From positions 1 through 64,000 of the IMG/VR virus record IMGVR_UViG_3300044631_000780: a DNA stretch of 64,000 bases; one strand, written 5' to 3'. Below are positions 33,911-62,276 of this stretch, piece by piece. Under the pieces are notes generated by a model. The model saw only the letters and a list, made by a program, of their open reading frames with translations. It made no database searches and had not been told where the DNA came from. The DNA is from a virus. Numbering within the stretch: position 1 is the first letter of the stretch; each line of letters opens with the position of its first letter. The translations under genes and the position numbers were made by a program.

Positions 33911-35104
33911 TTAGTATGCCCTTATAATCATTATGATTGTTTGAGATGGAGTATTTGTTTCCATTTGTAGATTTAATGCTTTATCAATACTAGAAACATT
34001 TACTGTATATGATTGGATATTATTGAGTGCTATGTTAGTTGGTGCTCTCAATCCAGAACGAGTCATACTAATATCAAAACTAAAATGATTGTGTGCTGCT
34101 AAGCTAGCTTCGGTAAAATTTTCTCCAGCGTGACTAAGATTAGTTGGATATGTTTCAGTAGTGTCACCATTTAAATAATTTGGTCTACCAAGAAGACTAG
34201 GATAAGCAATTGGAAATGTTCCAGTATGCGCTACTTCTTGGTGATTGTAGTTGTATGTATCTGAAAAAGCACCAGTGTATGCTCCAGATGCTGGAATATT
34301 TCTGGTCAATCCAACAGCAGGAATTGTTGCTTGTTGAAATGTCTTTGTAGTATCAGTGAGAACCATTGTATTCTCATCATAATAAGTGATCGGTCCATAT
34401 CCATTTGTCCAAACATCTGGTCCATCAGCGGAAGTAACACCAGTTAAGTTTGCTGATTCGTAATTTGGAGATCCAGAGACTTGATATGTTGGAGCTTCAA
34501 AAACTTGAACATATCTACCACTAGTTACAGCAGTTGTATATTGTCCACTATGTTTGTGACCTGGAGTATGGTCAATTCCCAATTTTCTACCAACCACATA
34601 ATAAGTTTTAGACCAAGTTGGATCATTCAAACTGAATTCTGTAATTCTTCCAGCCATATTATCAATTGGATCCATCTGAAAGATAAGATCAGTATCAGCA
34701 CTATAAAGTGCTGGTGGAGTAACTCCAGTTCCATCTTCAGATATCAGACCACCAACAACATCATAAGCATTTGATTGATTGTATTGATACTTTGTTTCTA
34801 ACAGATAATCTTTTTCAAGATCAACCATTGCTCTTCCGTTTAGATTTGGAACTCGGAAAAGATCACTTTCTTCAAAGTCAGGAAAATTTCCTTGAATAGC
34901 ATCTTCAGTTGGTCCATAGGTATTACCAAGTATTGAAGCTAACAAAGGATATCTTTCTGCTGGATATGTAGATCCATCACATAATATCCACCCATGTGGA
35001 ACACCATTAGGATTATTTCCAGTAACGGAAGAGCTGCCGCCCCAGGGCATAATAGTACCCACTGGGGCGCTCTTCATTGTTTTTAGACGATTGTAGAATG
35101 CCAT
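33911..35104 (-). CDS. Tail collar domain fibre protein, 397 aa
   Basis: Starts MAFYNRLKTMKSAPVGTIMP. Collar domain near 35-95 has HGWILCDGSTYPAERYPLLA and FRVPNLNGRAMVDLEKDYL. The body has HTPGHKHSGQYTTAV (a metal-coordinating HxH type as in T4 gp12). A paralogue of 32623-33909, two bases apart. Its ATG overlaps the stop of the giant protein gene. Confidence 0.85.
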   Translation of the reverse strand: MAFYNRLKTMKSAPVGTIMPWGGSSSVTGNNPNGVPHGWILCDGSTYPAERYPLLASILGNTYGPTEDAIQGNFPDFEESDLFRVPNLNGRAMVDLEKDYLLETKYQYNQSNAYDVVGGLISEDGTGVTPPALYSADTDLIFQMDPIDNMAGRITEFSLNDPTWSKTYYVVGRKLGIDHTPGHKHSGQYTTAVTSGRYVQVFEAPTYQVSGSPNYESANLTGVTSADGPDVWTNGYGPITYYDENTMVLTDTTKTFQQATIPAVGLTRNIPASGAYTGAFSDTYNYNHQEVAHTGTFPIAYPSLLGRPNYLNGDTTETYPTNLSHAGENFTEASLAAHNHFSFDISMTRSGLRAPTNIALNNIQSYTVNVSSIDKALNLQMETNTPSQTIIMIIRAY

Positions 35105-38100
35105 CAGAGTTCAGTCAACCACCAACCTTGATACGTAGCAGGAATAAAGTTATCTCCATCAGTTTGTCCAACATAGATTAGACCAAATGAAGCGTTCTTA
35201 TTCTGAACTACTAGTTCTCCAGAAGCATATGGAGTTGATAAACCACCCAATCTAGTTCCTTCAGTATCACCTTGAATTGCTACTGGTTCACCTCCAACAA
35301 TTGGAGCACGAATTACTAGAGAGTTGTTGTATGTTAGTTGTCCACCAACTTCAGTAATCCTGATTGTATCTCCAGTTTTTGGATTGGATGGTAAGGTCAG
35401 AACAAGAGCACCTGTAGAAGGAGCTACTGCTACAATATAATTTATATTGACTTGAAGAGTGGTATTTGCGTTCACAAACTTGGTGATATGACCACCATTT
35501 GAATTCTTCCATCCTTCATATCCAAAAGCATCAACAGAGCAATCTTGTCTAATTGTGAAATTCTTCGTTCCACCATCTCCAAGATTTCTGATATCTAGGA
35601 TCTTTTGAGATTGAGCAGCAATACTGGAACTAATACCAGCAACATCAAGCAGACGACCAACAAATGTATCACCAAAGTTTGGTTCTACTCTAAACGTTGG
35701 TAAGAATGATCTATTACTAAACTGAATAGCATCTGGTTCTTCAACACAAGTTGTTGGGAACACTCTAAACAATCCACTAACATCTGTAGCAGCATTGATA
35801 GAAAGTTTTCCTCCTTCAAAATGGTGCTCTTCGTTGTTAACTAGATTAATAATTGGAACATTGTTGTCAGTGCCGCTAATTCTAAAGTTAGATCCGACAA
35901 AATTTACATCATCATATACTGTTAGGCGACCATGATGATAATCTTTCTTGACTAGTTTTGTTCCACCATCATTTGTGATTGTACTTGTAACTTCAAATAC
36001 TTCACTGTCAATAACCATGAAATATTCACGATCCAAGAAGAATGGAACAAGATCACTGTTCTTTAATCCAATTTCAATATTTGTTCCGCCAGTTGTTCCA
36101 ATAGCAGATGTTGTAGTTGTTGTTTCTCTAATGAGAACTCTCCATACACTTTCACCATCTTGGTGAGTTTTAGCAGTTCCAGCAAGAGGAGAACGAGTTA
36201 CAGGTAAGTAACCAGAGTTTCCAGAAGTTGCTACTGGATTTGAAGAAATTCTCATAAATTCTTCATTTCCACCAGAACCGTACCCAACTAAGATATAATC
36301 ACCATTGGCAAAATCACTAATATCATCAACTGGTAGTTGGGTTGCGCTTGTAGTAATCGCAGTAACAGTATCAACAAATGTTGTTGCGATAGAGTTATCA
36401 ACCTTTGGATCTTTCAAGATTACATAAACAGTTGCTCCACTGGAATGTGCCGCTACGCTAGTACCAAACTTTGCTCTCTGAGCAAGAATTGTTCCGCTAG
36501 GATTACCAACAATAGTGTCTCCAGAGCAAGCGTCAACAGAGAAAATATCACGAACTCTATCAGTAATACTGAACTTTTCATTCTTATTGGCAACAAATGT
36601 AATACCTTCCTGACTACCAGTTCCAGTGAATGGAAGATTTAGTGTAATTGTAGAACCGCTAATGCTTACAACTTGTGGATCTGTTAGTCTAGTTTCACCA
36701 GAATCAATCGGGAATCTATTTTGAGTTAATGTTACAGTTCCGCCGCCTGTCACAATTTGAACATAATCTCCAACTTCAATACCAGAAGTATTCGTAACAG
36801 CAGTGATAGTTGTCAATCCAGCTTGAGCATTTCCAGTAAACTGCTGCGAAGAAGCAGTCTTACATCCACCAACGAAAGTAAATGATCCATTGACAGTTAA
36901 TTTGCCATTCTCTCCAGAAACACCATCATTACCAATAATTGTTTCACCAGTTACACTATCAACAGAGAAGAGAACGTTTCCATTTGGACATCCGCTTAGG
37001 ATAGAGAATGTCTTGTTCTCTTGAACCAAAGTAGAAACTAGTTTAAATACCTCACCCTGATCAAATACTCCATCACTATTTGTATCAGTACGATCAATAA
37101 CAATATAGTCAACCCCAGTTCTTAAGGTTCCACCAAACGTTGCCAGATAAACATTTTCGGTAGTTCCAGAAGCATCAATTGATTGCTCAGTCCAAGTAGC
37201 ATCAAACGCGATGTTACACTTATAAATTGGAGTTCTATTGTTTGGTTCATCTGGATGATTGGTCTTAACCGCTGTAAATGTTCCCAGTGGTCTTCTTTGA
37301 ACTGTTAAGTAATATGGAGCAGTTTCAGCTCCCGCCAATCCACCAGGAGCAACACGTAGAATTTCTGGATGAGTTCCAGCAACAGAATCAACAACTGTAT
37401 CAAGGATCAGATAATCACCCTCTCTGAAGTAATCTCCAGGTGGATTTAGAAGTGGTAAGTAGTATAGATCTCCAGTTAGTGCTGGAAGATCAGATCCTTC
37501 TGGACCACCACCAGGAATTAGTTCTTGGAAATCAGTGCTGCCCCAATCAGCAGAACCTGCTGTATCCAATCTATTAAAGTTAGGATCACTATCAGGAACT
37601 TGAAGAACATTAATCAAATCTACATTTTGATTAAATGTTGTTGGTCCAAGAATACCATCATCATGAGCAAAAGCGGTTGTTCCCAACTGTGCTCTATTGG
37701 CGGTGAATGAGAACGCAGCGACGCCACCACAGAGATGAACATTACCATTGAAAATTGTTTCACCATCAATCTCCAAACTATTTCTAATGGTTGTTGTTCC
37801 ACCCTGACCAGCAATTCTAACCTCAGAAGCATTCAAGGCAAAATCCATCGTCTGGGTATTGCCAGAGAAGAAACTTACAATTCCTGCTTCTGTGCTTAGA
37901 GTTACAACTTGCTCTGGATTTGTTCTGTCACCACCAAGAGACTTAAATGAACCAAATGTTACATCTCCAGCAAACTTGACTTGTTTTGTTTCAAAGTCAA
38001 CGTAGCTGAGTGATGATAGGCGATCATAAGCACCACCAATCTTGGTCTTAGAAATAGCAGCATCTCTATCAATGTTACCAATGAATAGATTACTGTGATT

Positions 38101-41100
38101 TGCGCTATTACCGATCTTGATAAACTGATCGTTAGTAGCTTTATCTCCAATATAAATCCACTGATTAGCAGTTGTATGATCACCAATTCTAATTGTCTTA
38201 GAATAACCAGCAAGATTTAATCCACCAGTGTTGTCTCCACCAACGAATGTGCTGTCGTTTAGAAGATTGAAGGTTCCAGTAGTAATGCCAGTTCTGACTT
38301 CACCAGTAGCAGTGCCACTATCTGTGTAGATTTCAATATCTCTTTGGAATCTAGCATCTTCTGTAAATCTAGAATCACCAACAACTACAAGTGCTCTATT
38401 GAGTTGACTATTTGTAACTGATTGATTGGTATTAATTCCAAGTCTACCTAGGTTATTACCTCTGCCAGATTCGGAAATAGCAACCGTAGTAGTATCAACT
38501 CTTAAAGTGCTGTAGTTTGTTGGAGCAAGACTATCCCCACCAACTACAAGGGCGTCAGAAATCGCATTAAATGTTCTGTTTGTTGGATTGGAGTTTGATA
38601 AGTAGTTATTTGGTGCTGTAGAAAGAGTTCTACCACTGATATATGCTTTACCAACAACATCAAGGTTAGCACGAGGATCTGTTGTAGTAGGATCAACAAA
38701 TCCATTAGCATATGCCGAGTGTGGAGAACGAGCAACAGTGTTGATGCCCAACTTATAGTTTCCAATGGATTCAGTTTCAGTTCTAAGTGCTTCAGAACCA
38801 ATTACACCAACTTCCTTCCAAGAAGCATTTGAGAATTCAACACTTGGAGGTGTAGCTCCAATTGCTGTTCCAGCAATGATATCTGCCCAGTTCTCTACGG
38901 CAGCTGGAATTTGATCAATTACTTGGAAGTGAACATAATTATTAGTTGGCGAGAAAGCATCTCCTGGTTTGTTGTATACAACCCAAGTTAGATTTAGTCT
39001 AGGATCATAGTAGAAGTTGTTAACTCTGATTTGAGAACCAGAAGTGATACCAATATCTTGGTTTGTAATATCAAGACCAGACTGACTATTCTTAAATGTT
39101 AGTTTTACTACATTGCTACCATCAAATGTAATTGTAAAGATGCTGTTATCAGCAATCTTTTGATAGTAGTTGGCAAGAATCCATCCAATAGATCCAGTTT
39201 TACCGATTTCAGAACCCTTAAGAAGAACATCACCAGGAACTGGTAATACACCACCATAAGTTACATATTGAGCAGAATTTACTCTGGTTCCACCATCAGC
39301 AACAAGAGGAGACTGGTTTGGAGTAATGTTTGCTGGAACACCAGAAGAAGTATGTGTTTGGAACATATACTTCTGTCCATTACCTCTGGCATTGAATTCA
39401 AATACAGCAGCGGTAACTTTATTCTTACTAATACGAATGTCACCAGCTGTTGGTGGTCTGAACGTTGTTCTATCAAGACCTTGATCTTGCTCCAGTTGCG
39501 TAACTGGATCAACAGATGATACATTAGATCTGATGATTAGAACATCTCTTTGCTGAACTAGATCATTATCTTGTACAGCAATTAGAACTGGCGATTCAAA
39601 CGAAGATACAAGAGTTCCATCTCCACCAACAACTGTTAGGTTCTGATTGAATGTAACTGGAGTATCAAATGTAGTAACTAGACCGCCAATTACATCATTC
39701 TCATCACCATCATCTTGTAAAGTCGCTGCGTCAATGAATGTTTCTTGACCAGTAATAGCATTGATTCTTCTATTACCAATATAGAGATCACCCTGAGAGT
39801 TAATACCCGTGTAGAAGACGATACCAGCGTCTTGTTTCTTAGATTGGGCATAGAAGTCCTGCTCTGGTGTTAGAACGACTTCCTGACGCGCAGGGAGACC
39901 AGTAGAGTAGTTACCAGGACCGAAACCAAGGTATTCAAACGTATGGTTACCAGCACGAGCAATGGATGGTCTACGGAGTTCAACGTAGTAACGTTGATCA
40001 TTAGCAACCGTGCTATCTCCAGAAATAGGAATTAAACGATCTTCCGATCCAGAAGTAGCATTTCCTTCCTGTGCTCTAATAGCATTAGATCCAGTGTAAG
40101 TGTTTTCAATGAAAGCTGGTTGACTGATAAGATCTTCAACAAGTTCTCTTGTTACAGAGTTCTTGTAATCGTTAACAGTAACAAGTCCATGAACATAGTT
40201 ATCAGCGGCAGAGAATGCCTGTGGAGGATCAATCAGTGCTGCGTAATAATCCTTCTCTTCATTTGTAGTTCCATTGTTCTTAAACCAGAGAGGATCGTTT
40301 CTGTAGTTTAGAGGATATAGTCTGCTGACTGGTTGCGAGAACTTAAAGTTCTTGAAGTTGTTGATAACTCCAGCACCAGTTGGGAATGGAGAGATGTTAC
40401 CACGTAGGCAAGTTAGATAGTAGATACCATCTTGCTGACCAGCAATACGGCGCTGTAGTGTTTCCGAAGCAAAGATATAGAATGTATCATCAATGATACC
40501 AGCATCTTCTACAGACTCAACATAGTATTCGATACCAGCGTCATCCTGAATGCGGTCACCAGGAGTAATGGTATAAACGTTGGCACCATTCTGTCTCCAG
40601 TAATATTCTGGATAACCCTTACGAATAAGAGTCTTCAGTGGCAACGATTTGCCCATATCCTGATCTTCCAGCATATCTGCGAAGACAGAACCTTGGGTAA
40701 ATCTTACACTATCATACTCGCTATATTCTAGTTTACCACCACGAATATTCTTAATGATGAGGTAGTGATCACCACCAACACTATAATAAGCATGAATGTT
40801 AGCAAGACCAGAGGAATATCCTGTAAATGTTACTTGGTTAGCAGTGATATTCTGAGTCTTGTTGGTTACAAAATCTCCACCTTGAGGAGCAGTGATCTTA
40901 ATTGTTGTAAAGATCTCATTTCTCAAACCAGGGAAGTTCTTAGAGTCAACAGTGTGGTCATAAACTGTTAATTCAAGATACTTAATATTAGAATTAAGAG
41001 CATCTGTTACATAACGACCACCTTGAATTGTTGCTTGAATACCAGAATTGAAACGAGCAAAAGCACGATACTCAATACCAGCACCAGTCAAGTCTTTCTT

Positions 41101-44100
41101 GAATGGATCGTATGCTGCGTCAGTGTTAAGACCGTTCGTAGCAAACTGTGCTGCTGTGTATCCAATATATTCTCCAGCTTGAACTGGGTTTTCAAATCTA
41201 GCACCATACACAGAACCAGTAACTGGCTTGAGTAAGATCTTCTGAGGAATTAGTTTACGTGTATCGTCAGTTCTTGTCTTAAGAACAAATCCATTGATTG
41301 GATCTCTAGCATTCTGGAGATACTTAGGAATGACATAACGGATCTTATAAGTTCTATCGTCGGCTTCTCTAGTGTCATCTAAACGCTCATACCACATGTC
41401 CGTGGTTCTTGGTCTATCAGAATAATCAGATTGATTGATTCTCCAGAAAATATTCTCTTGCTGAACAGAAGATGGTTGAGCAGTTACTTGATCCTTACAC
41501 TGAATATACCACTTACCTGTTGTAGAAACAGAGTCAGTATAAGCAGGATCAAATCTCATTGGAGATCTACGCTTGTTAGCCCAAACATCAAATTTTAGTG
41601 AAGTTTGACCAGAAGCAAATGTAATTGGATTTACATTGTTGATCGCATCAGCATGTGTCTTGTGAATGGTGAATACTTTATCATTCTGATAACGAGCGAA
41701 GAATTCGATCTGAGGATTGATTCTACCGACATTAGAATTTGTGATGTCGGTAACAGCTACCGTGGGATCGTTAGCATAGGTGCTAGCAACAATTGGTAGA
41801 GATCCACCCTCAATTGCTCTAAAGAATACTCTATGTGGAGTTGTTGCTGCTGATGGAACGTCAAAAATGTGTGATACATCAGTCTCAATGCCAGCATTAA
41901 CAGTATTTGTTAGATTACACTCATAGTTGTGTAATGTATACTTGTCATCGAGAACAAACTGATAGAGATCAATTTCAACATCTGGATCAATACTGTCAGT
42001 TTCTGACGCATAGATGTAAATACCAGCAGCAGCATTCTCTTTAGAAGTTGCGAGCATCAGTTTTGTCTGATCGCTTCCGTTAAAGAATGTAGTTGTACTG
42101 TAATCTGCTGGTTGAGTTCTTCTGCCAGGAGCAATTACATAGTAAGTTCTGTTTGGTTCAAATCCTTTTGGAAGTCTGATAAGACGCTTATCAATCTCAA
42201 CATACTTACCAGTCTCAACATCAAATCTAGGACGAGGTACAAGTCTTACTGGTGTTCCAGTTTCAAAGTTATGAGCATTTGTTGCTCCATATCCAGTAAT
42301 ATCAATCGTAAAGATTGTAGCACGAGAAGAAAGAAGTGCTGTGTTAACTGTCTGCTCTTGACGAGTAACAGTTCCAAGTCCACTGTTAATAATGGTTGTG
42401 ATATTACCAACCAATGTGGTGATAGCATTAGCAACGTCGGCACATTCTCTTTGTGTTGGAGCTGATGGTGTATATGCTTGAGTATCCTGAATAACATCTG
42501 GATTTGTATTCTCTGGTCCTACAGTTACTCTCTGTGGTAGAGTATTTGCCCAAGATCCTTTCTCATATGTAAAGTATAGTCTCGTTGTTGTGCTACTTTG
42601 TAGAGCATTTACTGTATTTCCAGTATCAAATCTAGAATTAGCAACTCCAAGTTCAATCGTAGTGTTACTTACAATTCTCTTTACAAATGTATCTTTTGGA
42701 ATATTTGTATAAATTGGAACCGCATTGTTTTGAAGTAGACCATTAACGTAAGGAGTTGGAGATGAAGCATACTCAACAACTCTCATACCAATTACAATGC
42801 CACGAGTATCAGAAACGTTAACGAGAGCAGATCCAGTAGTTGTAACACAATTAATGGCAAGAACATCAAAGTTACGCATTGCTGCGATTGCCAGTTGTCC
42901 AACATAATTCCAAGCATCAATTGTCTCCGTCTTTTCTCCATCAATATATGTTAGATTATTTCCAACATAATATGCTTCACCAGCCTGAATGGAGTTAATA
43001 TTTCCGCCAAGTCTCAAGTCGTTGACAACAGCATCAACAATATATGAAACGTCACGATAACACTTAGATTGCTTAGCATTTACAATAAAGTCTCCAGCAT
43101 TTGCTGTTGGCAATCCAGCAAGAGATCCAGTGCCGATAGCATCGGTAACAATATCAAATAAGTTTTCAATTGATGAGCGAACATTAGCGCAATCCCACTC
43201 TCCATTAGTTAGAGGTGGAAGAGTATTGAGATTGCCAGCTTGAAGAGCATCACAAACAATACCAACTAATGTATCAACTGTTGCTAGAACATCAGAACAA
43301 TTGCCAAGAGTATAGGTTGTTGGTTGTGCTGGGGCAGTTCTTGTAATACCAGTTAGATTTCCTACACCACCATCGTTTCCAATTGCTTGTAGAAGAATGC
43401 CAAATAGGGTGTCAAGTGCTCCAACAGCAGAACCACACTTTGGTAGTAGTTCATCAGAATCCCAGTCATTAACAATAGTAAGATCCTTCTTCTGCGTGAA
43501 AGTATTGCCAGATGTAACTGTTACTGTTTCGTTTCTAAGAACTTGAATTGCGATGTTCTTAACTTCCGTGAATACTTTAGCAGCTTCATCACGCTCAGCA
43601 TCAAGGAATGTCTGAATTGGTTGACCATTGAATATGTTTGTTACATAGATATTCGCTGCGTCATAAGTCTTGGAGTTTCCACCAAACTTGACATCCCACA
43701 TCACTTCTTCTAGAACATCATAAACATCATCGAGACAATCTTGCTCAGTATTTCCAGTTTGTGGAACATATGAAGGATATGCTGCCTTCATGCGTAGATA
43801 TGCTTCCTTCGCAATGAATTCCTTGTTATCAAGAACAAGATTATAGGCATCAGCATGAATGTCAGCAACAAATGCTGGATCTTCTGTGTTATCAAGTGTG
43901 AGTGTTAAGTCTCTTACATAATATTGATTGTTGATGGCACGATTCATCAAGTCAGCAGATCTCTTGAATGCTGTAATTGATGGATTAATTTCATTAACAA
44001 GACCGTTTGGAAGTAAGGTTGTATTATTAGTAAAATACTCCTTAGTTGCTGCGATGGTATATTCATTACCACCAAACCAGAGATCCTGAGCAACAGCATC

Positions 44101-47100
44101 AACAATGTGACCGATATCTCTACGGCACTTGGTTTCACCAGTCAAGAATGTTCCAGCATTCTCAGCAGGAAGTGAATTGAGATTTCCAGCAGTTACAGCA
44201 GCAGTTACAATGCCAGTGAGAGTAGTGATTGCTGACTGGACGTTTGAACATGAAGATGAACTCTGATTATTGCCAGTCGCAGGATCTGCTGTGACAGTAA
44301 GATCTTTGTGGTAGAGTTGGTTTGTAATTGCTCTACGCATGAATTCAGCAGCTTCATTGAATGCTACATTGCTCTGAGCAGTTTCTCCAACTAAACCATT
44401 GCTGATTGGAGTTGTAACGTTAGTAAAATACTGCTGAATAAATGTTCTGGTGTGCTTATTACCGCCAGTGAATAGGTCAACAGAAATGGCATCAATAAAG
44501 TATCCGATATCACGAGCACACTTTCTCATGCCAGCAGGAGCAGATCCTTTGTTGATCGTCTGTGGCATTGAATTTAGATTGCCATCGTTAATAATTGTAG
44601 TTACGATGCCAGCAAGAGTGTCAATAGCAGAGCGAACGTTAGCACAAGAATTAGCATCAGTGTTGCTACCAGTAGCAGGATCAGCAGTAATAGTAAGATC
44701 CTTAACTGTGAGTTGGTTAGTGATAGCAAGTCTCATCAAGTTTCTTGCTTGATTGAAAGCATAGATGCTTTCTGTAACTTCACCAACTAGACCATTGCTG
44801 ATTGGAGTTGTAGCATTTGAGAAATACTCAGCAGCAAATCTGTATGAATACTCGTTACCACGAATGAAAAGGTCAAGCGAGATCGCATCAACAAAGTATC
44901 CAAGGTCTCTCTTACACTTCGTTTCAGTAGAAGCAACACCAGGATACAGAGTGACCATATTGGTCCAAGCAGTATTGACAATTTCTGTCTTGTTCTGCTG
45001 AATTAGACGGTAGCTATCATAGAAACGCGAATCTGCTGTAGTTTGAGCATCGCCAGGGAAGTAGAAATCTGGATAATCAACAGCGATCTTAGCAAGTGCT
45101 CTATCAGTAATCTCTTTGCTATTGCGACGAATGAGACGGAACGCATCAGCAAAACGAGATTGTGCGTTGCTCTGAGTATCACCAGGCATGTAGAAATCTG
45201 GATGATAAACAGCAACTTCAGCAAGTGCTGCGTCAAGAATAAATTCTCTGTTAGCAAGAATACGATTACGAGCATCCTTATAACGACCAGCAGGATCTTG
45301 CTTATTTGCGGCATCAACTGTTACACCTTCACTATTCAATCCTAAAGCAGCAGATCCAGTGCTTCCTGCGATCACACCATATGGACTTAGGATGCTAGGG
45401 TTCTCTGGATCATAAATTGCTGCTTTAACTGTAAGTAGATTAGCAACTGCTTTCTTACAAAGATCTCTTGCTCTGTTAAAAGCAAATACAGCATAGGTTT
45501 CTTCACCAACCAGACCGTTCTGTAATGGCGTACCGTCACCATTGAAGTAGAACTTGGTAGCTTCGATGGTGTTGAGGTTTCCGCCGTCTCTAAGGTCTTC
45601 TGCGATGGCATCTACAATAAATCCAATGTCACGCTTACACTTACCATTTGCAACACCTTGGATATTTCCAATACCAAAAGTTTCAACCATTTGGTTGAAT
45701 GCTGTGTCAACGATTTCTTGGCGGTTCGCAAGGATTAAGTTGCGAGCATCGAAGTAACGACCAGCAGCAGGATTTAGACCAGGGTTGACATAAGGAATGT
45801 TTTGAAGTGCTGGATACTTCTCAAGAATATATCCAAAAACTTCCTCTTGGATCATTGTGCGATTGCTTTCAATCAAGTTAGCAGCATCAGCGTAGATGCC
45901 ATTGATTGAGATACCAGAAGGATTTAAAATTGATCCTTTCGCAATATACTTAACAAAACCAGTTGGTTCTAATTCTACGTTAAATACTTCTCCAGTTCCA
46001 GCAGCAGGATCAAGTTTTACATATAGTTTGTCACCAGTTTTTGCTCCAAGTCTATAACCATCAATGGTCGCAGCTGGACGCTCTGTTGGAATAATAATGT
46101 CATCGCTACCCAAGAACAACTTAGTATAGTTGTTAGGATTTTGAATTGTTCCTTGAATATCAATCGTATAATAAGTAACTTTTTTGATATTCTCAGCAGT
46201 TTCCTCTGCTTGCTGTGGTGGAATGATGTGAGTAATGTATCCACCTTTGTCTTGGTTGAACGCAAATCCTTTGAAACCAATCGCGTGTAGAGAGGTATTA
46301 CCAAAGTTTGAGTTGGAGTTGGTGATGGACATGTCTCCACCACTTTCCATTAGGAAGTGATCAGCAAAACCAACGGCGAAGATGGAAACGTTCTGAATGA
46401 ATGCGTCTTCTGAAGCACGAACGTGGAAGTTTCTCCACTCATCCTTCCAGTAACTATCACCCTTTGCGTGATAAGGAACAGTAGCAAATGCGTCTGTTAG
46501 TGATGCTTGATTCCAAGTGTTTGAATACTCATCGTAACGGATGAATGCTCTATCGTCTTTCTGTAGAGAAACACCAGTGTACTGAGCAATAACCATGGAT
46601 CTAAATCCAGTGGCTTTTAGACCATTTGCCCAGATACCACAAATACCCCAGGTAGAACGAATTGAAACGTTGAAGACGTATGGAGAAGCAGATTCGACGC
46701 TATCAACCTCAGCAAGAGTTTGTGCGTTTTGTCCAAGGGCAGGAGTTGTATCTACACTGATTGTTTGTCCAGAAACAATGTTAGTGCCAATTCCACCAAC
46801 AACGAATGGAACTTCATATTTAAATTTGCGAGGGTCATTCTCGTCAATCTCTTTGATTGGGAAAAATCCTTCAAGAACATCATCAATATTTGTATTTGAA
46901 ATAGCAACAAATTGACCAGCAAAATATCCATGATCAACTTTAGTCGTTACTTCAACTTCAGTTGTGGATGCTGGAATGCTAGGATCAGTTGTCGCATCTA
47001 CAAACTTCAGTGATTCAATAACACGAGAGTCAGATAAAGGACCAACAATTCTATTTTCTTGAATGTTGAAATCAAATTCACCTGGATCATCAATTGTTGG

Positions 47101-47838
47101 TTGATAAGATGAAAATGCCTTAGCGATCTTTCTGTAGAATAATCCTAGCTCTTCACTATCAGCATATTCAAATACTGTTAGTTTGTGGTGAGAGAAATTA
47201 GGAGCAGTAAGTTTGGTGAAGTCTTGAGGATCATAATAAACTTCACCAGTTCCTTCAGCAGAATTGAAAAGAGGAGATTCAGAAGTTGTTTGACCATCTT
47301 TAATAGTGAACTGCCAGAAGTAACATCCACCAGTTACATTAAAGATCGCAGAACGTGGGACAGTTACAGAAGCAGGATCAGGAACGTAGAGAGGTCTGAT
47401 CGTTGTTCTACGAAGGTCATAACCAACAAGTGAAGAACCACGAGGAATAATAGCACCGCCTTCAGTGTTATTAAACTTGTATAGTACGTTGTTTGGATTG
47501 GAGATATCAAGAATGCTATTATCAGTCCAAGCATTTAGAGCTTGATCAAATCCAAATACATCAATGCCATTAGTATCTACAAGACCAGGACGGTTATCAA
47601 TATAGTGAATACCAGGCATCAGCATGATGCTGAACTGGTCAAAACGGTCATTATTCTTACCAGGAAGGTAAGAATATCTTGCGATTTCTAGGAAAGCACG
47701 CTGAATACTCTTGAATGGTGTAATTGGTGAATTACCTCTGTTGGATAACGCATCGGTTGCGTTAAAATCATCAGGAGAAACATAAAGATACTTACCAGTT
47801 TTTGAACTGATAAGATTATCCAGACGTGTTAATGGCAT
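35104..47838 (-). CDS. Giant repetitive virion structural protein, 4244 aa
   Basis: The N-terminus (MPLTRLDNLISSKTGKYLYV then LPGKNNDRFDQFSIMLMPGI) looks like a right-handed beta-helix of the pectate-lyase type. In about residues 650-1650 two repeat families alternate: type 1, (K/R)C(K/R)RDIG(Y/H)(I/F)(V/I)DAI, followed by DL...GGN, at least six times at a DNA period of 390-400 bp in the best copies; type 2, AxxLIxxNxxxI with helices. Later parts are beta-rich. It is the longest gene here, 12.7 kb, and is comparable to the very large structural proteins of cyanophages. Expressed from a TATAAATA late promoter at 47878-47885. Exact role (fibre, sheath appendage or baseplate) is unknown. Confidence 0.85.
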   Translation of the reverse strand: MPLTRLDNLISSKTGKYLYVSPDDFNATDALSNRGNSPITPFKSIQRAFLEIARYSYLPGKNNDRFDQFSIMLMPGIHYIDNRPGLVDTNGIDVFGFDQALNAWTDNSILDISNPNNVLYKFNNTEGGAIIPRGSSLVGYDLRRTTIRPLYVPDPASVTVPRSAIFNVTGGCYFWQFTIKDGQTTSESPLFNSAEGTGEVYYDPQDFTKLTAPNFSHHKLTVFEYADSEELGLFYRKIAKAFSSYQPTIDDPGEFDFNIQENRIVGPLSDSRVIESLKFVDATTDPSIPASTTEVEVTTKVDHGYFAGQFVAISNTNIDDVLEGFFPIKEIDENDPRKFKYEVPFVVGGIGTNIVSGQTISVDTTPALGQNAQTLAEVDSVESASPYVFNVSIRSTWGICGIWANGLKATGFRSMVIAQYTGVSLQKDDRAFIRYDEYSNTWNQASLTDAFATVPYHAKGDSYWKDEWRNFHVRASEDAFIQNVSIFAVGFADHFLMESGGDMSITNSNSNFGNTSLHAIGFKGFAFNQDKGGYITHIIPPQQAEETAENIKKVTYYTIDIQGTIQNPNNYTKLFLGSDDIIIPTERPAATIDGYRLGAKTGDKLYVKLDPAAGTGEVFNVELEPTGFVKYIAKGSILNPSGISINGIYADAANLIESNRTMIQEEVFGYILEKYPALQNIPYVNPGLNPAAGRYFDARNLILANRQEIVDTAFNQMVETFGIGNIQGVANGKCKRDIGFIVDAIAEDLRDGGNLNTIEATKFYFNGDGTPLQNGLVGEETYAVFAFNRARDLCKKAVANLLTVKAAIYDPENPSILSPYGVIAGSTGSAALGLNSEGVTVDAANKQDPAGRYKDARNRILANREFILDAALAEVAVYHPDFYMPGDTQSNAQSRFADAFRLIRRNSKEITDRALAKIAVDYPDFYFPGDAQTTADSRFYDSYRLIQQNKTEIVNTAWTNMVTLYPGVASTETKCKRDLGYFVDAISLDLFIRGNEYSYRFAAEYFSNATTPISNGLVGEVTESIYAFNQARNLMRLAITNQLTVKDLTITADPATGSNTDANSCANVRSAIDTLAGIVTTIINDGNLNSMPQTINKGSAPAGMRKCARDIGYFIDAISVDLFTGGNKHTRTFIQQYFTNVTTPISNGLVGETAQSNVAFNEAAEFMRRAITNQLYHKDLTVTADPATGNNQSSSSCSNVQSAITTLTGIVTAAVTAGNLNSLPAENAGTFLTGETKCRRDIGHIVDAVAQDLWFGGNEYTIAATKEYFTNNTTLLPNGLVNEINPSITAFKRSADLMNRAINNQYYVRDLTLTLDNTEDPAFVADIHADAYNLVLDNKEFIAKEAYLRMKAAYPSYVPQTGNTEQDCLDDVYDVLEEVMWDVKFGGNSKTYDAANIYVTNIFNGQPIQTFLDAERDEAAKVFTEVKNIAIQVLRNETVTVTSGNTFTQKKDLTIVNDWDSDELLPKCGSAVGALDTLFGILLQAIGNDGGVGNLTGITRTAPAQPTTYTLGNCSDVLATVDTLVGIVCDALQAGNLNTLPPLTNGEWDCANVRSSIENLFDIVTDAIGTGSLAGLPTANAGDFIVNAKQSKCYRDVSYIVDAVVNDLRLGGNINSIQAGEAYYVGNNLTYIDGEKTETIDAWNYVGQLAIAAMRNFDVLAINCVTTTGSALVNVSDTRGIVIGMRVVEYASSPTPYVNGLLQNNAVPIYTNIPKDTFVKRIVSNTTIELGVANSRFDTGNTVNALQSSTTTRLYFTYEKGSWANTLPQRVTVGPENTNPDVIQDTQAYTPSAPTQRECADVANAITTLVGNITTIINSGLGTVTRQEQTVNTALLSSRATIFTIDITGYGATNAHNFETGTPVRLVPRPRFDVETGKYVEIDKRLIRLPKGFEPNRTYYVIAPGRRTQPADYSTTTFFNGSDQTKLMLATSKENAAAGIYIYASETDSIDPDVEIDLYQFVLDDKYTLHNYECNLTNTVNAGIETDVSHIFDVPSAATTPHRVFFRAIEGGSLPIVASTYANDPTVAVTDITNSNVGRINPQIEFFARYQNDKVFTIHKTHADAINNVNPITFASGQTSLKFDVWANKRRSPMRFDPAYTDSVSTTGKWYIQCKDQVTAQPSSVQQENIFWRINQSDYSDRPRTTDMWYERLDDTREADDRTYKIRYVIPKYLQNARDPINGFVLKTRTDDTRKLIPQKILLKPVTGSVYGARFENPVQAGEYIGYTAAQFATNGLNTDAAYDPFKKDLTGAGIEYRAFARFNSGIQATIQGGRYVTDALNSNIKYLELTVYDHTVDSKNFPGLRNEIFTTIKITAPQGGDFVTNKTQNITANQVTFTGYSSGLANIHAYYSVGGDHYLIIKNIRGGKLEYSEYDSVRFTQGSVFADMLEDQDMGKSLPLKTLIRKGYPEYYWRQNGANVYTITPGDRIQDDAGIEYYVESVEDAGIIDDTFYIFASETLQRRIAGQQDGIYYLTCLRGNISPFPTGAGVINNFKNFKFSQPVSRLYPLNYRNDPLWFKNNGTTNEEKDYYAALIDPPQAFSAADNYVHGLVTVNDYKNSVTRELVEDLISQPAFIENTYTGSNAIRAQEGNATSGSEDRLIPISGDSTVANDQRYYVELRRPSIARAGNHTFEYLGFGPGNYSTGLPARQEVVLTPEQDFYAQSKKQDAGIVFYTGINSQGDLYIGNRRINAITGQETFIDAATLQDDGDENDVIGGLVTTFDTPVTFNQNLTVVGGDGTLVSSFESPVLIAVQDNDLVQQRDVLIIRSNVSSVDPVTQLEQDQGLDRTTFRPPTAGDIRISKNKVTAAVFEFNARGNGQKYMFQTHTSSGVPANITPNQSPLVADGGTRVNSAQYVTYGGVLPVPGDVLLKGSEIGKTGSIGWILANYYQKIADNSIFTITFDGSNVVKLTFKNSQSGLDITNQDIGITSGSQIRVNNFYYDPRLNLTWVVYNKPGDAFSPTNNYVHFQVIDQIPAAVENWADIIAGTAIGATPPSVEFSNASWKEVGVIGSEALRTETESIGNYKLGINTVARSPHSAYANGFVDPTTTDPRANLDVVGKAYISGRTLSTAPNNYLSNSNPTNRTFNAISDALVVGGDSLAPTNYSTLRVDTTTVAISESGRGNNLGRLGINTNQSVTNSQLNRALVVVGDSRFTEDARFQRDIEIYTDSGTATGEVRTGITTGTFNLLNDSTFVGGDNTGGLNLAGYSKTIRIGDHTTANQWIYIGDKATNDQFIKIGNSANHSNLFIGNIDRDAAISKTKIGGAYDRLSSLSYVDFETKQVKFAGDVTFGSFKSLGGDRTNPEQVVTLSTEAGIVSFFSGNTQTMDFALNASEVRIAGQGGTTTIRNSLEIDGETIFNGNVHLCGGVAAFSFTANRAQLGTTAFAHDDGILGPTTFNQNVDLINVLQVPDSDPNFNRLDTAGSADWGSTDFQELIPGGGPEGSDLPALTGDLYYLPLLNPPGDYFREGDYLILDTVVDSVAGTHPEILRVAPGGLAGAETAPYYLTVQRRPLGTFTAVKTNHPDEPNNRTPIYKCNIAFDATWTEQSIDASGTTENVYLATFGGTLRTGVDYIVIDRTDTNSDGVFDQGEVFKLVSTLVQENKTFSILSGCPNGNVLFSVDSVTGETIIGNDGVSGENGKLTVNGSFTFVGGCKTASSQQFTGNAQAGLTTITAVTNTSGIEVGDYVQIVTGGGTVTLTQNRFPIDSGETRLTDPQVVSISGSTITLNLPFTGTGSQEGITFVANKNEKFSITDRVRDIFSVDACSGDTIVGNPSGTILAQRAKFGTSVAAHSSGATVYVILKDPKVDNSIATTFVDTVTAITTSATQLPVDDISDFANGDYILVGYGSGGNEEFMRISSNPVATSGNSGYLPVTRSPLAGTAKTHQDGESVWRVLIRETTTTTSAIGTTGGTNIEIGLKNSDLVPFFLDREYFMVIDSEVFEVTSTITNDGGTKLVKKDYHHGRLTVYDDVNFVGSNFRISGTDNNVPIINLVNNEEHHFEGGKLSINAATDVSGLFRVFPTTCVEEPDAIQFSNRSFLPTFRVEPNFGDTFVGRLLDVAGISSSIAAQSQKILDIRNLGDGGTKNFTIRQDCSVDAFGYEGWKNSNGGHITKFVNANTTLQVNINYIVAVAPSTGALVLTLPSNPKTGDTIRITEVGGQLTYNNSLVIRAPIVGGEPVAIQGDTEGTRLGGLSTPYASGELVVQNKNASFGLIYVGQTDGDNFIPATYQGWWLTEL

Positions 47839-57670: not shown

Positions 57671-60541
57671 TTAACTCTGTACTCTTAATGCCAGCGCCGC
57701 TAGTCCTGTAGAACTTGAACCACCAGCTGGTCCTGCTGCTGCTACCTGAGCACCGCTGCCCGCTTGAGTGTTATTGTTATTAATAATTGTCGTTCCACCA
57801 CCTCTGGTGTTTCTCATACTAGAACTGTAGGATGCCGATGCTTGTGCTACTTCATTGCCAGTAGTACGATTTGCTGGTGCCGTTGTTGGCATCGCTCTTA
57901 GAGAACCAGGAGAAGATCCAGATCCTCTACCACCTCCAGATCCAGTTGGTTTTTTAGCAGCTGCTGCTGTTGGAGTTGGAGTTCCAGATGGTTTTCCTGC
58001 TTTTGCTGCCACACCAGCTGGCATTCTGTAAATTTTACCTTTTCCACGATAATAAGAATTATATCCAGCAACTGTGTCTACCCAACTAAATTGTGCTCCA
58101 CTCGAAGAATTAGAAATTACTTTTCCATCTGGTGTTATGACACCAATATGTTTCTGTCCAGGAGCAACATAGAGGTCTCCTGGTTGCGGGGAGGATACTT
58201 GAGTGTATCCAGCCTTGATCATCATTTCTTCTGCTGTAGGAACATATTCTGATGTTCCCCACGGTGTAGGAATACCAGCTTTAGCAAAAACTTTATTTAC
58301 CGCCCAAACACAACCATTTCTACCACCATCAGGTGCCGCTTTACTCGACATTCCTTTCATGGAAGCAGCAGCTTGTGCTAAAGCAGCAGCACCTCCAGAT
58401 CCTCTCATCGTACTACCAAAGTCTTTTGTGGCAGCAAGTTTAGCAGCATTTTTCATTCTATTTTCAAATCCAGCAGATCCTGCCTTTTCCCCAGATCGTT
58501 CAAATTTTTCCAAGAACATCGTAGCAGATTCTCTGGATGTTTTTGCTCCTTTTAAAGTTTTTAAGCTAAGTCCGCCAGCGCCAGTTCTCATTTCTTCCAT
58601 AATCCACTGAAGCTGTGCTTCTCGTGTGTTCACATCCAAATCCTTTTGTTTTGCCCATTTTTCAAAATTTCCCCATCTGTTTTTATCCCACTGGGCAATT
58701 CCGCGATGTCCAGTAGCATTCTTTGCTTTTGGATCAATTCCAGCTCCAGATTCTTGCATTAAGTTACCAACAATACCAGCAGCCTGATCTTTTGTTAATC
58801 CTTGGCTCATGAAATAATTCATTGCTTGAGCTTGTCCGCTAGTTCCACTGAAATCTCCAGCACCATTCAAATAATCTGCTGGATTTCCAGTAGGAGCAGC
58901 TTGAGCAGCTCCACCAAGTAAAGTGGTTAAAGTTCCACTAAACAATGATCCAAGAACACCTCCAATTTTACCCCAAACACTAGCAAGATTTTTTCCTAAT
59001 CTTTCTCCACCACCTTCATTTTCATAATATTGTCTCAGTCCTTGAGATTGAATTCTCGCAAAATCTCTACTATTTGCTTTTTGAGCATCAATCATTCCTT
59101 CACCAAACAACTTAAACATTTGCTTGGATTTTGCCTTATCCCCACCAACCAAACCACCTTGATTATATGCTTTCCCCCCAGTAGGATTATTGGATCCACC
59201 ACCCATCGCATTCATCGCCAATAGTGTACCTCTACCCCAAGCATTACCAGCAGCATTACTCATCACAACTTCGCCCTCATCGGCACGAATAGGCACATCA
59301 TCAACAACACTCTTCTTACCACCAGTGACTAAACCTCCTCTAGCCATTCCTTTTCCACCACCAGATACATCTCTGGCAACATCAGCTGCCAGAAATCCCC
59401 ACCCAATTGGTCCTGGTATCGCAGATCCTGCTGATAGAGCAGCGCCTAAAATATCACCTCTACTCAATGCTTCTCCAGCAAGTCCAAGACCAATTGCTGT
59501 TTGAGCACCTGGGATCATTCTTGCTGCTGTTTTTCCACCAATTTTCATCAATGCCTTGGCGCCGCCTTTACCAGCAACCGCTGCTCCAGCCCTTGGCAAT
59601 ACCCTAGCAGCTCCTCTTGCGCCGATGCCTGGTGCCGCTTTGCCGATGATCTTACCAGCTGCTCCCAAAGCAGTTCCAAGACCCAATCCACCGCCTCCAC
59701 CACCGCTGGAACCACCACCAGTAAGTGAACCCAATCCACCAGTTGGAGTGATAAATCCAGAATTATCAGTTCCAGCTTCCAATGCTTTTTCTTCATCTCT
59801 TGCTAGAGATCTATTTGCAATCTTTTCTGCTGATGATTTCGCATTCTGAGCAATTTGCTTGTCTGCCGCTGTTTGTGCTTTTACAGCATCAACCAAAGAA
59901 CTAACTACATTCGTTAAATTATCAACAGATCCTACAACTGCTTCATCTCCTTTAGTCATGAGAGAAGAAGCACTAGAAATTCCTGGTGCTGCTGCTGATG
60001 CTACACTCGCAGTAGCATTTAACTGTGATTTTGATTTTTTTAGAAATTCCTTTCTTTCTTCACTACTAAGATATCTTCCAGTTTCTGGGTCTACTCCAGT
60101 TTGTGCTGCTTTGAAAAATGCTTCGCTATCTAATTTTTTTGGAGCAGCAGAAATACCAGAAAGATTTGTAAATGTTCCACCTTTTGTTGGAGATGCTCCA
60201 CCAGGAAGTCTTGGTCCCCCTGGTGGTAGTGCTAATTGTTCTTTTTTTACAATAGCATCAGATCCAGCACCAAGGACACCAGCAACAGCAGATTGCTTGA
60301 GCATCTTTAGTGCTGGTGGTTCACTCTTTTGTGCTTTTGAGGCAGTAACATCAGAAACTCTTACCGCTTTTAATCCTGGATCATAGATATCTGGTTTTGG
60401 AGTTGTTGCTAATGCGCCACCACTTTCTTCTTTTTTTTCTTTCTCTTCCTTCTCTTTGTTTAGTTTTTTCCACAACCATTCAACGTTTTTCCAGAAGTTA
60501 TCTCCTGATACTGGTGTGGGTGTAAGAAAACCGTGTGCCAT
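57671..60541 (-). CDS. Tape-measure-like tail protein with lysozyme and NlpC/CHAP-like domains, 956 aa
   Basis: The first ~560 residues are Ala/Gly/Lys-rich with long low-complexity helices (VAKSQ-type, AAKSG) and a transmembrane-like stretch, as in tape measure proteins. About 570-700 is a phage tail lysozyme domain (LTKDQAAGIVGNLMQESGAG then GHRGIAQW and WIMEEM). About 740-850 is an NlpC/P60- or CHAP-type domain with Cys and His (NGCVWAVNKVFAKAGIPTPW, PGQKHIGVITPDG). These would cut peptidoglycan during DNA injection. The lysozyme of T4 gp5 thus seems moved here. Directly follows the frameshifted chaperone genes, the classical tape-measure position. ATG overlaps the preceding stop (TAATG). 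Confidence 0.75.
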   Translation of the reverse strand: MAHGFLTPTPVSGDNFWKNVEWLWKKLNKEKEEKEKKEESGGALATTPKPDIYDPGLKAVRVSDVTASKAQKSEPPALKMLKQSAVAGVLGAGSDAIVKKEQLALPPGGPRLPGGASPTKGGTFTNLSGISAAPKKLDSEAFFKAAQTGVDPETGRYLSSEERKEFLKKSKSQLNATASVASAAAPGISSASSLMTKGDEAVVGSVDNLTNVVSSLVDAVKAQTAADKQIAQNAKSSAEKIANRSLARDEEKALEAGTDNSGFITPTGGLGSLTGGGSSGGGGGGLGLGTALGAAGKIIGKAAPGIGARGAARVLPRAGAAVAGKGGAKALMKIGGKTAARMIPGAQTAIGLGLAGEALSRGDILGAALSAGSAIPGPIGWGFLAADVARDVSGGGKGMARGGLVTGGKKSVVDDVPIRADEGEVVMSNAAGNAWGRGTLLAMNAMGGGSNNPTGGKAYNQGGLVGGDKAKSKQMFKLFGEGMIDAQKANSRDFARIQSQGLRQYYENEGGGERLGKNLASVWGKIGGVLGSLFSGTLTTLLGGAAQAAPTGNPADYLNGAGDFSGTSGQAQAMNYFMSQGLTKDQAAGIVGNLMQESGAGIDPKAKNATGHRGIAQWDKNRWGNFEKWAKQKDLDVNTREAQLQWIMEEMRTGAGGLSLKTLKGAKTSRESATMFLEKFERSGEKAGSAGFENRMKNAAKLAATKDFGSTMRGSGGAAALAQAAASMKGMSSKAAPDGGRNGCVWAVNKVFAKAGIPTPWGTSEYVPTAEEMMIKAGYTQVSSPQPGDLYVAPGQKHIGVITPDGKVISNSSSGAQFSWVDTVAGYNSYYRGKGKIYRMPAGVAAKAGKPSGTPTPTAAAAKKPTGSGGGRGSGSSPGSLRAMPTTAPANRTTGNEVAQASASYSSSMRNTRGGGTTIINNNNTQAGSGAQVAAAGPAGGSSSTGLAALALRVQS

Positions 60542-60729
60542 TAGCGTTGTGCTGCTCGTTCTTGTTCTTGTCTATCTTGTTCCAGATACTGCATCAGAAG
60601 AGTAGTATAAACCTGCCTCTCCCATGGCATCATATTTTCAATATCAGTCAAGCTATATTTATGGTGCTGCATCAAAGCAAAGTTGGTTTTATAGTACCCT
60701 TCCAAACTGTTATGGAAGAGTGCTATCCG
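60541..60729 (-). CDS. Frameshift-expressed C-terminal extension of gp26-like protein (GT-type), 62 aa
   Basis: Open frame in the -1 register of 60723-61439, from CGG right after the slippery site to TAA 60541-60543. It contains no in-frame ATG/GTG/TTG early on; the first ATG is residue 20. Reads RIALFHNSLEGYYKTNFALM, then an IENMMPWERQVYTTLLMQYL helix and a charged tail. The MPWE motif is shared with chaperone T-type domains. Expected product: gp26-extension fusion made by -1 frameshifting, needed for tail assembly with the tape measure. Late promoter CATAAATA lies inside at 60656-60663. Confidence 0.7.
   Translation of the reverse strand, partial: RIALFHNSLEGYYKTNFALMQHHKYSLTDIENMMPWERQVYTTLLMQYLEQDRQEQERAAQR
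60656..60663 (-). promoter_or_regulatory. Late promoter variant CATAAATA
   Basis: CATAAATATAG, identical in core to the element before gp54 (62295-62302), 115 bp upstream of the tape-measure ATG. It lies inside the frameshift extension. Confidence 0.55.
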
Positions 60730-60735
60730 AAAAAA
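60697..60735 (-). promoter_or_regulatory. Programmed -1 ribosomal frameshift signal
   Basis: Slippery heptamer U UUU UUC at 60735-60729 in the gp26 frame, 8-nt spacer GGATAGCA (holding the UAG stop), then an 8-bp stem CUCUUCCA (60720-60713) / UGGAAGGG (60704-60697) with an 8-nt loop. All three parts of a canonical signal are present, at the right distances. Confidence 0.8.
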
Positions 60736-61439
60736 TTGGTCAGTCCCGAAATCGTGTACTCAGAAACAATTCCAGTTTTTGGATTTTTGAGAGAAAATGT
60801 ATGTTCTAGTCTTGGTGTATCAGCAAAAAACTGCTGTACTTTCTCAAATTGCTTGTTTGTAAATCCTTCAACAAATTCAATAAATTCTTTTTTACTGGTT
60901 GTTGAACTATCATAAACATCTTCACCGTTGTAAATTTGATCAATACAATCAGCAAGATTTTCAATTACTCCATCAGCGGTGATAGGAGCACCAAGAATAG
61001 AAGTTTTGATAAAATCGTCAAATGATGGATATTTCATGATCACACCCATTTCATCAGTGAGATCAATTTTGTTAGAATGTCCTTCTGGTTTATTTACTTT
61101 GACTTCTAGTAAATTGAGATTATATTTTACAACAGTCTCTTCATCATCTCTACAGGTGATATTCATCTCAATTGTTTCACCAACCGAAACGGCACGAATT
61201 TGAAGAAAAATGTATTCTAGGTCAAAAGATGCCAATTCTTCAACTTTGATACCTTTAGTTTGAATACAACCTTTCAGCAATGTCTTCATTGCCTCTTCAA
61301 CTTGTTTTTCGTCATTTGTCTCTAATGCCAGTAAAAGCAGTTTTTCTTCTTTTACTACAAATGGACGATATTTGATTTTTTTGCCATTAGATGGAATTTC
61401 CAACTCATACGTTGGAAGAACAACTTGTGGTAATGCCAT
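60723..61439 (-). CDS. 26: gp26/gp51-type tail assembly chaperone (baseplate hub protein), 238 aa
   Basis: Starts MALPQVVLPTYELEIPSNGK, then KKIKYRPFVVKEEKLLLLAL: the T4 baseplate family (PF12322) start, P-x-Y-x-L-x-I-P-S-x-G-K. In T4 it is listed as gp26 and gp51, hub assembly factors. Its position just before the tape measure, plus the -1 frameshift at its end, makes it the analogue of lambda gpG, which makes gpG and gpGT to chaperone the tape measure. Two products expected: 238 aa, and a fusion about 60 aa longer. Last residues read LTNFFG. Confidence 0.85.
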   Translation of the reverse strand: MALPQVVLPTYELEIPSNGKKIKYRPFVVKEEKLLLLALETNDEKQVEEAMKTLLKGCIQTKGIKVEELASFDLEYIFLQIRAVSVGETIEMNITCRDDEETVVKYNLNLLEVKVNKPEGHSNKIDLTDEMGVIMKYPSFDDFIKTSILGAPITADGVIENLADCIDQIYNGEDVYDSSTTSKKEFIEFVEGFTNKQFEKVQQFFADTPRLEHTFSLKNPKTGIVSEYTISGLTNFFG

Positions 61440-61462
61440 TATGTTTAGACCAGATCATATGT

Positions 61463-61471
61463 ATATTTAGC
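61463..61471 (-). promoter_or_regulatory. Late promoter variant GCTAAATAT
   Basis: CTAAATA core 24 bp upstream of the gp26-like ATG. The 91-bp gap it lies in also carries GGAAAAA...TTTTTCC (61490-61510 region), a possible weak terminator after gp54. Confidence 0.5.
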
Positions 61472-61530
61472 GCGACTTTTTCAGCGATTTTTTGGCGGAA
61501 AAATTTTTTCCAATTTCATAGAATTGAAAA

Positions 61531-62268
61531 TCACGTTTTGGAACCAGGAACTACCTTTTGTTGAACATCTGCTTTTGCTTTGCCAGTATACATTCCGTTT
61601 AAAGTACCAGCCACAGAAGTAATGTTATTAGGAATAGTATAGTGTCTGGAATATGAGAACTGTGCTGAGACCTGAGTGATCTGAGAGTTTCCATAGGACA
61701 ATGGTATTGCGTCAATCGCATATGGATACGCATTTTCTAAGACGTAAGTAATTGGAGCTCTTTGATTTGCTGCGTATGGTCCTTGTTCTGTCTTACTGAT
61801 CAACATAGTACAAGCATATTCATCTCTATATTTTAGACGAACTGCTCTATTTTCTGGTCGTATACTTGTTGTAGCCAAAGATTGTAGTTGGGATAATGAC
61901 TTATTGTTCTGTTGATCTTGCCATTCTTGAACCGTTCCTAACTTTCCATCGCCACTAAAAATAAAATCCAACCATTTGTTCAAAAATTTCAATGCTGATA
62001 GATTAGCATCCAGCATAAATCCAAGTTGTAATTCAGTGTACACTCTTGTATGTGGATATTGTACAGTGCCACTGCCAACATACAATCCATTAACACTGCC
62101 TTGAGCAGTATTGGTGTTAGGTAGCTGAGCTTCATTACAAAACAATGACACGATGGTATCTAAGTCATTGAAAGTAACTTTAGGATTAATGAACTTAACC
62201 TCAAAGTTATTACTATATGACATTCCGCCATACTTAGCAATAGTATTGATGAAGTTATTTACTGACAC
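61531..62268 (-). CDS. 54: gp54-like baseplate tail tube initiator, 245 aa
   Basis: GTG start at 62268 (MSVNNFINTIAKYGGMSYSN). The fold is the gp19/gp54 tail-tube type: NNFEVKFINPKVTFNDLDTI, then VKLPYLN-like strands, and the end pattern ITYVLENAYPYAIDAIPLSY then GNSQITQVSAQFSYSRHYTI as in T4 gp54 (C-I-P-I...S-Y-D-G-D-N-Q-I-T-x-F-x-V-T-F-x-Y). gp54 starts tube polymerisation on the baseplate, so it is expected next to gp48. T4 gp54 is ~320 aa, so this is shorter. Confidence 0.75.
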   Translation of the reverse strand: MSVNNFINTIAKYGGMSYSNNFEVKFINPKVTFNDLDTIVSLFCNEAQLPNTNTAQGSVNGLYVGSGTVQYPHTRVYTELQLGFMLDANLSALKFLNKWLDFIFSGDGKLGTVQEWQDQQNNKSLSQLQSLATTSIRPENRAVRLKYRDEYACTMLISKTEQGPYAANQRAPITYVLENAYPYAIDAIPLSYGNSQITQVSAQFSYSRHYTIPNNITSVAGTLNGMYTGKAKADVQQKVVPGSKT

Positions 62269-62276
62269 GCTAAATA
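62269..62276 (+). promoter_or_regulatory. Late promoter variant GCTAAATA (plus strand)
   Basis: CTAAATA core in the 31-bp intergenic gap, 24 bp before the gp4 ATG. Confidence 0.5.

Follow-up and report, generated by a model that had tools for sequence, protein, structure and literature searches.

A gp26-like gene on the minus strand of the virus record IMGVR_UViG_3300044631_000780, a marine T4-like cyanophage of which 64,000 of 65,671 bases were analysed (hereafter, the window), very probably yields two tail assembly chaperones through −1 ribosomal frameshifting, namely a zero-frame product of 238 amino acids (aa), TAC-N, and a minor product of 299 aa, TAC-NC, in a manner resembling gpG and gpGT of phage lambda. 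A preliminary description, made from the DNA letters alone, had already proposed a chaperone of the G/GT type at this locus, and this reading is supported by a conserved slippery heptamer, a coding −1 frame, homology to gp51 of phage T4 and the predicted fold of the gp26-like protein. The arrangement is a published one, and we regard the locus as a new, well-supported example of it and not as a discovery. The elements concerned, whose previously given coordinates all hold on re-reading of the sequence and its open reading frames (ORFs), are the following:

60723..61439, minus strand: TAC-N, gp26-like zero-frame product (gpG analogue), 238 aa; PF12322 and phrog_150
60729..60735, minus strand: slippery heptamer T TTT TTC (U UUU UUC), in X XXY YYZ phase with the gp26-like gene
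60723..60725, minus strand: zero-frame stop TAG, one codon (GGA) past the heptamer; read from the sequence
60541..60729, minus strand: −1 frame extension (T domain), 62 codons and TAA, no start needed; phrog_634 and ratio of nonsynonymous to synonymous substitution rates (dN/dS)
60541..61439, minus strand: TAC-NC, predicted frameshift fusion, from the reading frames
60696..60721, minus strand: putative stimulatory hairpin, 9 bp with an 8-nucleotide (nt) loop, 7 nt past the heptamer; folding energy and z-scores

A slippery heptamer is conserved at the end of the gp26-like gene

The gp26-like gene ends in ACC AAT TTT TTC GGA TAG, and its T TTT TTC stretch occupies the X XXY YYZ phase, as had been stated for a U UUU UUC heptamer in frame. 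TTTTTTC is not enriched in this AT-rich window (18 occurrences observed versus 25.5 expected); the frequency of the heptamer is therefore no evidence by itself and was rejected as such, so that the case rests on phase, position and conservation.

As a comparison set, we used 257 loci of the PF12322 family drawn from viral contigs and named phages. An in-phase T TTT TTN (T6N) is kept in 255 of these loci (231 T6C, 22 T6A, one T7 and one T6G). In 254 of the 255, the codon at XXY stands three before the stop, and the codon preceding the heptamer always ends in T in these relatives, be it one for Asn, Ser, Asp or Ala. Using the codon usage of gp26 itself as a synonymous null, we estimated the probability that synonymous choice alone retains T6N at ∼1e-32 over 80 clusters (<80% identity) and ∼1e-13 over 30 clusters (<60% identity), both values ignoring the relatedness that remains between clusters. 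Moreover, merely 5 of the 87 other Phe-Phe pairs encoded by these gp26 genes take the slippery form T TTT TTN. Judged from these comparisons, chance or codon choice is very unlikely to be the cause of T6N conservation.

The −1 frame is coding from the heptamer on

Read from the heptamer, the −1 frame translates as RIALFHNSLEGYYKTNF...AAQR and is open for 62 codons, exactly as first described; its whole translation from T TTT TTC (60729-60735) is RIALFHNSLEGYYKTNFALMQHHKYSLTDIENMMPWERQVYTTLLMQYLEQDRQEQERAAQR. The predicted TAC-NC consists of residues 1-237 followed by these 62 residues (299 aa), with the junction LTNFF-RIALF. The T region matches phrog_634 (gp51 'baseplate hub assembly catalyst') with an E-value of 1.1e-27, as well as the C-terminal columns 238-278 of phrog_150 (E 1.1e-5). 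Among relatives, the −1 extension measures 56-69 aa wherever its end is present, and truncation was never seen. Heptamer and −1 extension, whose absence from relatives had been named in the preliminary description as the outcome speaking against frameshifting, are both present in nearly every relative.

Over its initial 60 nt, the −1 frame is free of stops in 76/76 representatives, whereas the other two frames of the same stretch contain a stop in 76/76 and 73/76. Across relatives, codons 4-18 of the −1 frame have a dN/dS of ∼0.09, which is as low as that of codons 21-45, and third positions hold 66% of the differences found in codons 4-18. These patterns of substitution indicate that purifying selection acts on the −1 frame and that it is coding from the heptamer on, upstream of any conserved start.

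A downstream hairpin and an upstream Shine-Dalgarno-like element accompany the heptamer

The stem of the downstream hairpin is formed by the arms ACUCUUCCA and UGGAAGGGU (60713-60721 paired with 60696-60704). A hairpin of 8 bp at a distance of 8 nt had been proposed here; the hairpin itself is present, but comprises 9 bp and lies at 7 nt, the closing A-U pair having been omitted before. In the window, its folding energy is −12.6 kcal/mol, with a z-score of −4.55 versus dinucleotide shuffles and −3.5 versus synonymous recodings of the same peptide, and the mean z-score versus synonymous recoding amounts to −1.98 over 79 cluster representatives. The hairpin takes several forms. In the group of the window, its arms are CTCTTCCA and TGGAAGGG; in one sub-lineage the register is shifted, and CCCTCT is paired to AGAGGG. 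The stems of P-SSM2 and S-SSM6a are long (∼11 pairs), whereas that of the P-HM2 group is short and closes a small loop. In the P-HM2-like group, 77% of cells are paired versus at most 57% in slid controls. The window thus carries a predicted downstream stimulatory structure, of a kind that appears common, though not universal, in relatives.

Upstream of the slip site, the family shows a codon preference ahead of a conserved Gly, where GAG accounts for 35 of 57 Glu codons versus a background of 28%; this GAG GGA preference creates a Shine-Dalgarno (SD)-like GAGGG ∼10-15 nt upstream of the slip site, comparable to the stimulator of frameshifting in E. coli dnaX.

As a separate observation, members of the P-HM2-like group have a short hairpin, GCCCTC/GAGGGC, directly past the slip site, the 3' arm of which is also SD-like, and in several members an ATG is found nearby beyond that arm. 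Members of this group might make a further T product from an internal start.

The short and the predicted long form match T4 gp26 and gp51

The gp26-like protein matches PF12322 T4_baseplate (E 1.2e-68) and phrog_150 baseplate hub (E 1.2e-74). T4 gp26 and T4 gp51 both match PF12322, and T4 gp51 additionally matches the T region (phrog_634) C-terminally, which is the domain order, PF12322 followed by T, of the predicted TAC-NC. T4 gp26 is accordingly the counterpart of TAC-N in the window, while T4 gp51 resembles TAC-NC; since both belong to PF12322 and gp51 carries the T region, T4 encodes the short and the long form separately, in two divergently oriented genes, where the window has one gene and a frameshift. 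The end of T4 gp51 is without the slippery heptamer found in the gp26-like gene of the window. By homology, the window thus has the make-up of a T4-like chaperone locus, with a gp26-family protein predicted in the zero frame and a gp51-like C-terminal domain in the −1 frame.

The AlphaFold2 (AF2) model of the 238-aa protein has a predicted local distance difference test (pLDDT) score of 89.9. After re-ranking with VIA-align 2, for which Z <8 is the weak range, the best PDB chains over residues 1 to ∼90 were 3klu (YqbN; Z 7.0), 2ob9 (HK97 tail assembly chaperone; Z 6.8) and 3fgx (Z 6.4), the next PDB entry reaching Z 4.0. YqbN is presumably an XkdN-like chaperone. Structural matches among predicted viral proteins were to gp26-like proteins of many myophages, and a sequence profile search of the PDB with the gp26 alignment returned nothing meaningful. 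The modelled fold may resemble that of solved tail assembly chaperones; values of Z <8 are no proof of this, but the agreement with gene order and homology is good.

Points against frameshifting and alternative explanations

The signal, its conservation, the coding −1 frame and the homology to T4 gp26 and gp51 are directly supported, and so, less firmly, is the likeness of the predicted N-terminal fold to solved tail assembly chaperones. Several observations nevertheless weigh against frameshifting. The hairpin is not universal, with ∼59% of representatives having a z-score below −1, a stable hairpin is absent from some lineages, and pair counts in the P-HM2-like group are mixed, many pairs being broken in some lineages. 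It follows from these mixed counts and from the lineages devoid of a stable hairpin that the hairpin is a frequent and not a universal element, and, because of the former, a family-wide conserved base-paired structure is not claimed. As to the question put in the preliminary description, whether T6C and hairpin are kept in relatives, the in-phase heptamer is kept, mostly as T6C, and the hairpin in part. In addition, the upstream SD-like element of the window itself is weak (TCG GGA, giving CGGGA at 60744-60748, minus strand). With regard to the fold, Z-scores of 6-7 lie in the range flagged by the tool as possibly reflecting just a common arrangement, and a Foldseek search of the gp26-like model against the PDB gave no match with E <0.001. 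Finally, published cyanophage annotations give gp51 as a separate short gene.

The last of these points corresponds to an alternative which we consider highly improbable, one that takes the downstream ORF for a short gp51 gene in its own right, translated from a separate start (TTG at codon 9 or ATG at codon 20) by reinitiation or coupling past the stop of gp26. A separate short gp51 is annotated in many cyanophage records, and Sullivan et al. (2010) described a cyanophage gp51 of ∼20% of the usual length, with the first ∼200 residues missing (PMC3037559). Codon 20 or 19 of the T frame is commonly an ATG among representatives, and an SD-like motif precedes a start-like codon in 16/75 of them, mostly an ATG at codon 10 (9/75 with both this ATG and the motif). 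In the T frame of the window, the candidate starts are TTG at codon 9, TTG at codon 19 and ATG at codon 20, none of which is preceded by a clear SD-like motif; the earlier claim that no usable start lies ahead of residue 20 has to be amended for the two TTG codons. Against an independent gene, the first ATG of the T frame is scattered from codon 2 to codon 34 across representatives, the start position not being conserved, and annotators choose differing starts. Furthermore, purifying selection on the −1 frame extends to codons 4-18, ahead of the common ATG, which is not expected of an independently started gp51. An independent gp51 also leaves unexplained both the invariant in-phase T6N and the fusion, in T4, of the same domain to a second gp26-like protein.

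Still less probable is transcriptional slippage on the T6 run, by which a mixed pool of mRNAs would encode the same fusion protein. A conserved homopolymer run is indeed present; however, slippage by RNA polymerase usually needs about nine or more bases, for which six T are short, and the run is exactly six, followed by C, A or G, in 254/255 relatives and in the phase for tandem slippage. The enriched downstream hairpin and the fixed phase are both features of tandem tRNA slippage. The least probable explanation, an accident in which a Phe-Phe end kept for protein reasons becomes T6C in AT-rich DNA and chance or a sequencing error leaves the −1 frame open, can point to T6C being no commoner than expected in the window, but is countered by the recurrence of this arrangement in 255 relatives, which stem from different studies, and by the T profile match, and sequencing error with chance overlap was rejected on T6N conservation, the synonymous null and the dN/dS of the −1 frame.

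That slippage occurs, how often it does so and what the products bind are inferences. Under −1 ribosomal frameshifting, most ribosomes translating the gp26-like gene would halt at TAG and release TAC-N, whereas a minority, aided by the hairpin, would slip one base back on U UUU UUC and proceed in the −1 frame to yield TAC-NC, whose additional residues would constitute a gp51-like T domain. On the model of lambda gpG and gpGT, the product of the adjoining tape measure gene may be coated by numerous copies of TAC-N and a small number of TAC-NC, with the T domain recruiting tail tube subunits.

Exceptions in the Ackermannviridae

The two named loci without T6N are those of Salmonella phage SJ2 and Serratia phage KNP4 (Ackermannviridae), whose gp26 genes end in ATT TTC ATT TAA and GTT TTC ATC TGA, respectively; both keep an open −1 frame with T-like (gp51-like) sequence, and 18 Kuttervirus-like contigs agree with SJ2. 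The sequence at the heptamer site is A/G AUU UUC in Kuttervirus-like loci and G GUU UUC in KNP4. As a tentative reading, for which we see slightly less than even chances, the signal of T4-like chaperones may be a cassette composed of GAG GGA, U6N and hairpin, in which U6N alone is fixed, while the arms and register of the hairpin vary and the hairpin is lost in some lineages. The retention of the −1 frame in Ackermannviridae devoid of U6N would, in this cassette, imply a different slip mechanism there.

Genomic neighbourhood

The gp26-like gene is flanked by two tail genes:

61531..62268, minus strand: tail tube gene, upstream of the chaperone; phrog_45 tail tube, E 2.4e-38
57671..60541, minus strand: tape-measure-like gene, 956 aa, downstream; phrog_9570 tail length tape measure, E 4.6e-19

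The order on the minus strand is thus tail tube, gp26-like gene, 62-codon −1 frame and tape-measure-like gene, the latter with a tail lysozyme domain (residues 571-703, PF18013 Phage_lysozyme2, E 4.3e-25). The −1 frame stop TAA (60543-60541) overlaps the ATG of the tape-measure-like gene as TAATG, as noted previously. Going by these profile matches, a chaperone between tail tube and tape measure genes is the order of other long-tailed phages.

Late-promoter-like CTAAATA motifs were seen at 61464-61470 (minus strand) and 62270-62276 (plus strand), lying ∼25-30 nt ahead of the gp26-like gene and a head closure gene, respectively; across the window, CTAAATA is not enriched (6 found versus 9.6 expected). 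An Rfam search of 60400-61500 gave no match. Elsewhere, an ORF of 4244 aa (35104-47838, minus strand) has short tail fibre and tail fibre family matches over much of its length.

Relation to known systems and annotation

Vladimirov, Gautam and Davidson, in the abstract of their 2022 paper (Virology 566:9-15), reportedly describe a frameshift that is seemingly conserved in several T4-like groups. Their work is cited in PMC12846349 for slippery polyT sequences that TAC-N genes of T4-like phages carry and in PMC10885494 for T4-like phages with separate short and long genes. Going by these citing passages, their chaperones belong to the same gp26/gp51 family, the window falls under the frameshift type with no essential difference apparent, and, as polyT frameshifting in T4-like phages is thus in print, the kind is known and the locus a new member. 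The locus of phage Adele (Vandenendeviridae/Andersonviridae) likewise has a conserved −1 frameshift, placed at a polyT motif ahead of the tape measure gene, but its motif is GTTTTT and not the full U UUU UUN heptamer, and the phage families differ (PMC12846349). Lambda has a short chaperone, gpG, and a C-terminally extended form, gpGT, which arises when ribosomes slip by −1 close to the end of G, beside the tape measure gene (PMC5009743); the likeness to the window drawn here is one of arrangement.

In several named cyanophage records, e.g. S-WAM2, the T domain, lying between gp26 and the gene after it, is left unannotated, and in others the start of gp51 is inconsistent or doubtful; gene callers should therefore join both parts. 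The cyanophage 'gp51' stub, about one-fifth of T4 gp51 (PMC3037559), would be short because it is the C-terminal domain of the long chaperone, reached by frameshifting only. The finding fits the view that T4 uses two genes where many relatives frameshift, and thereby sharpens the earlier account of G-T frameshifting as widespread except in T4 (Atkins et al. 2016, PMC5009743).

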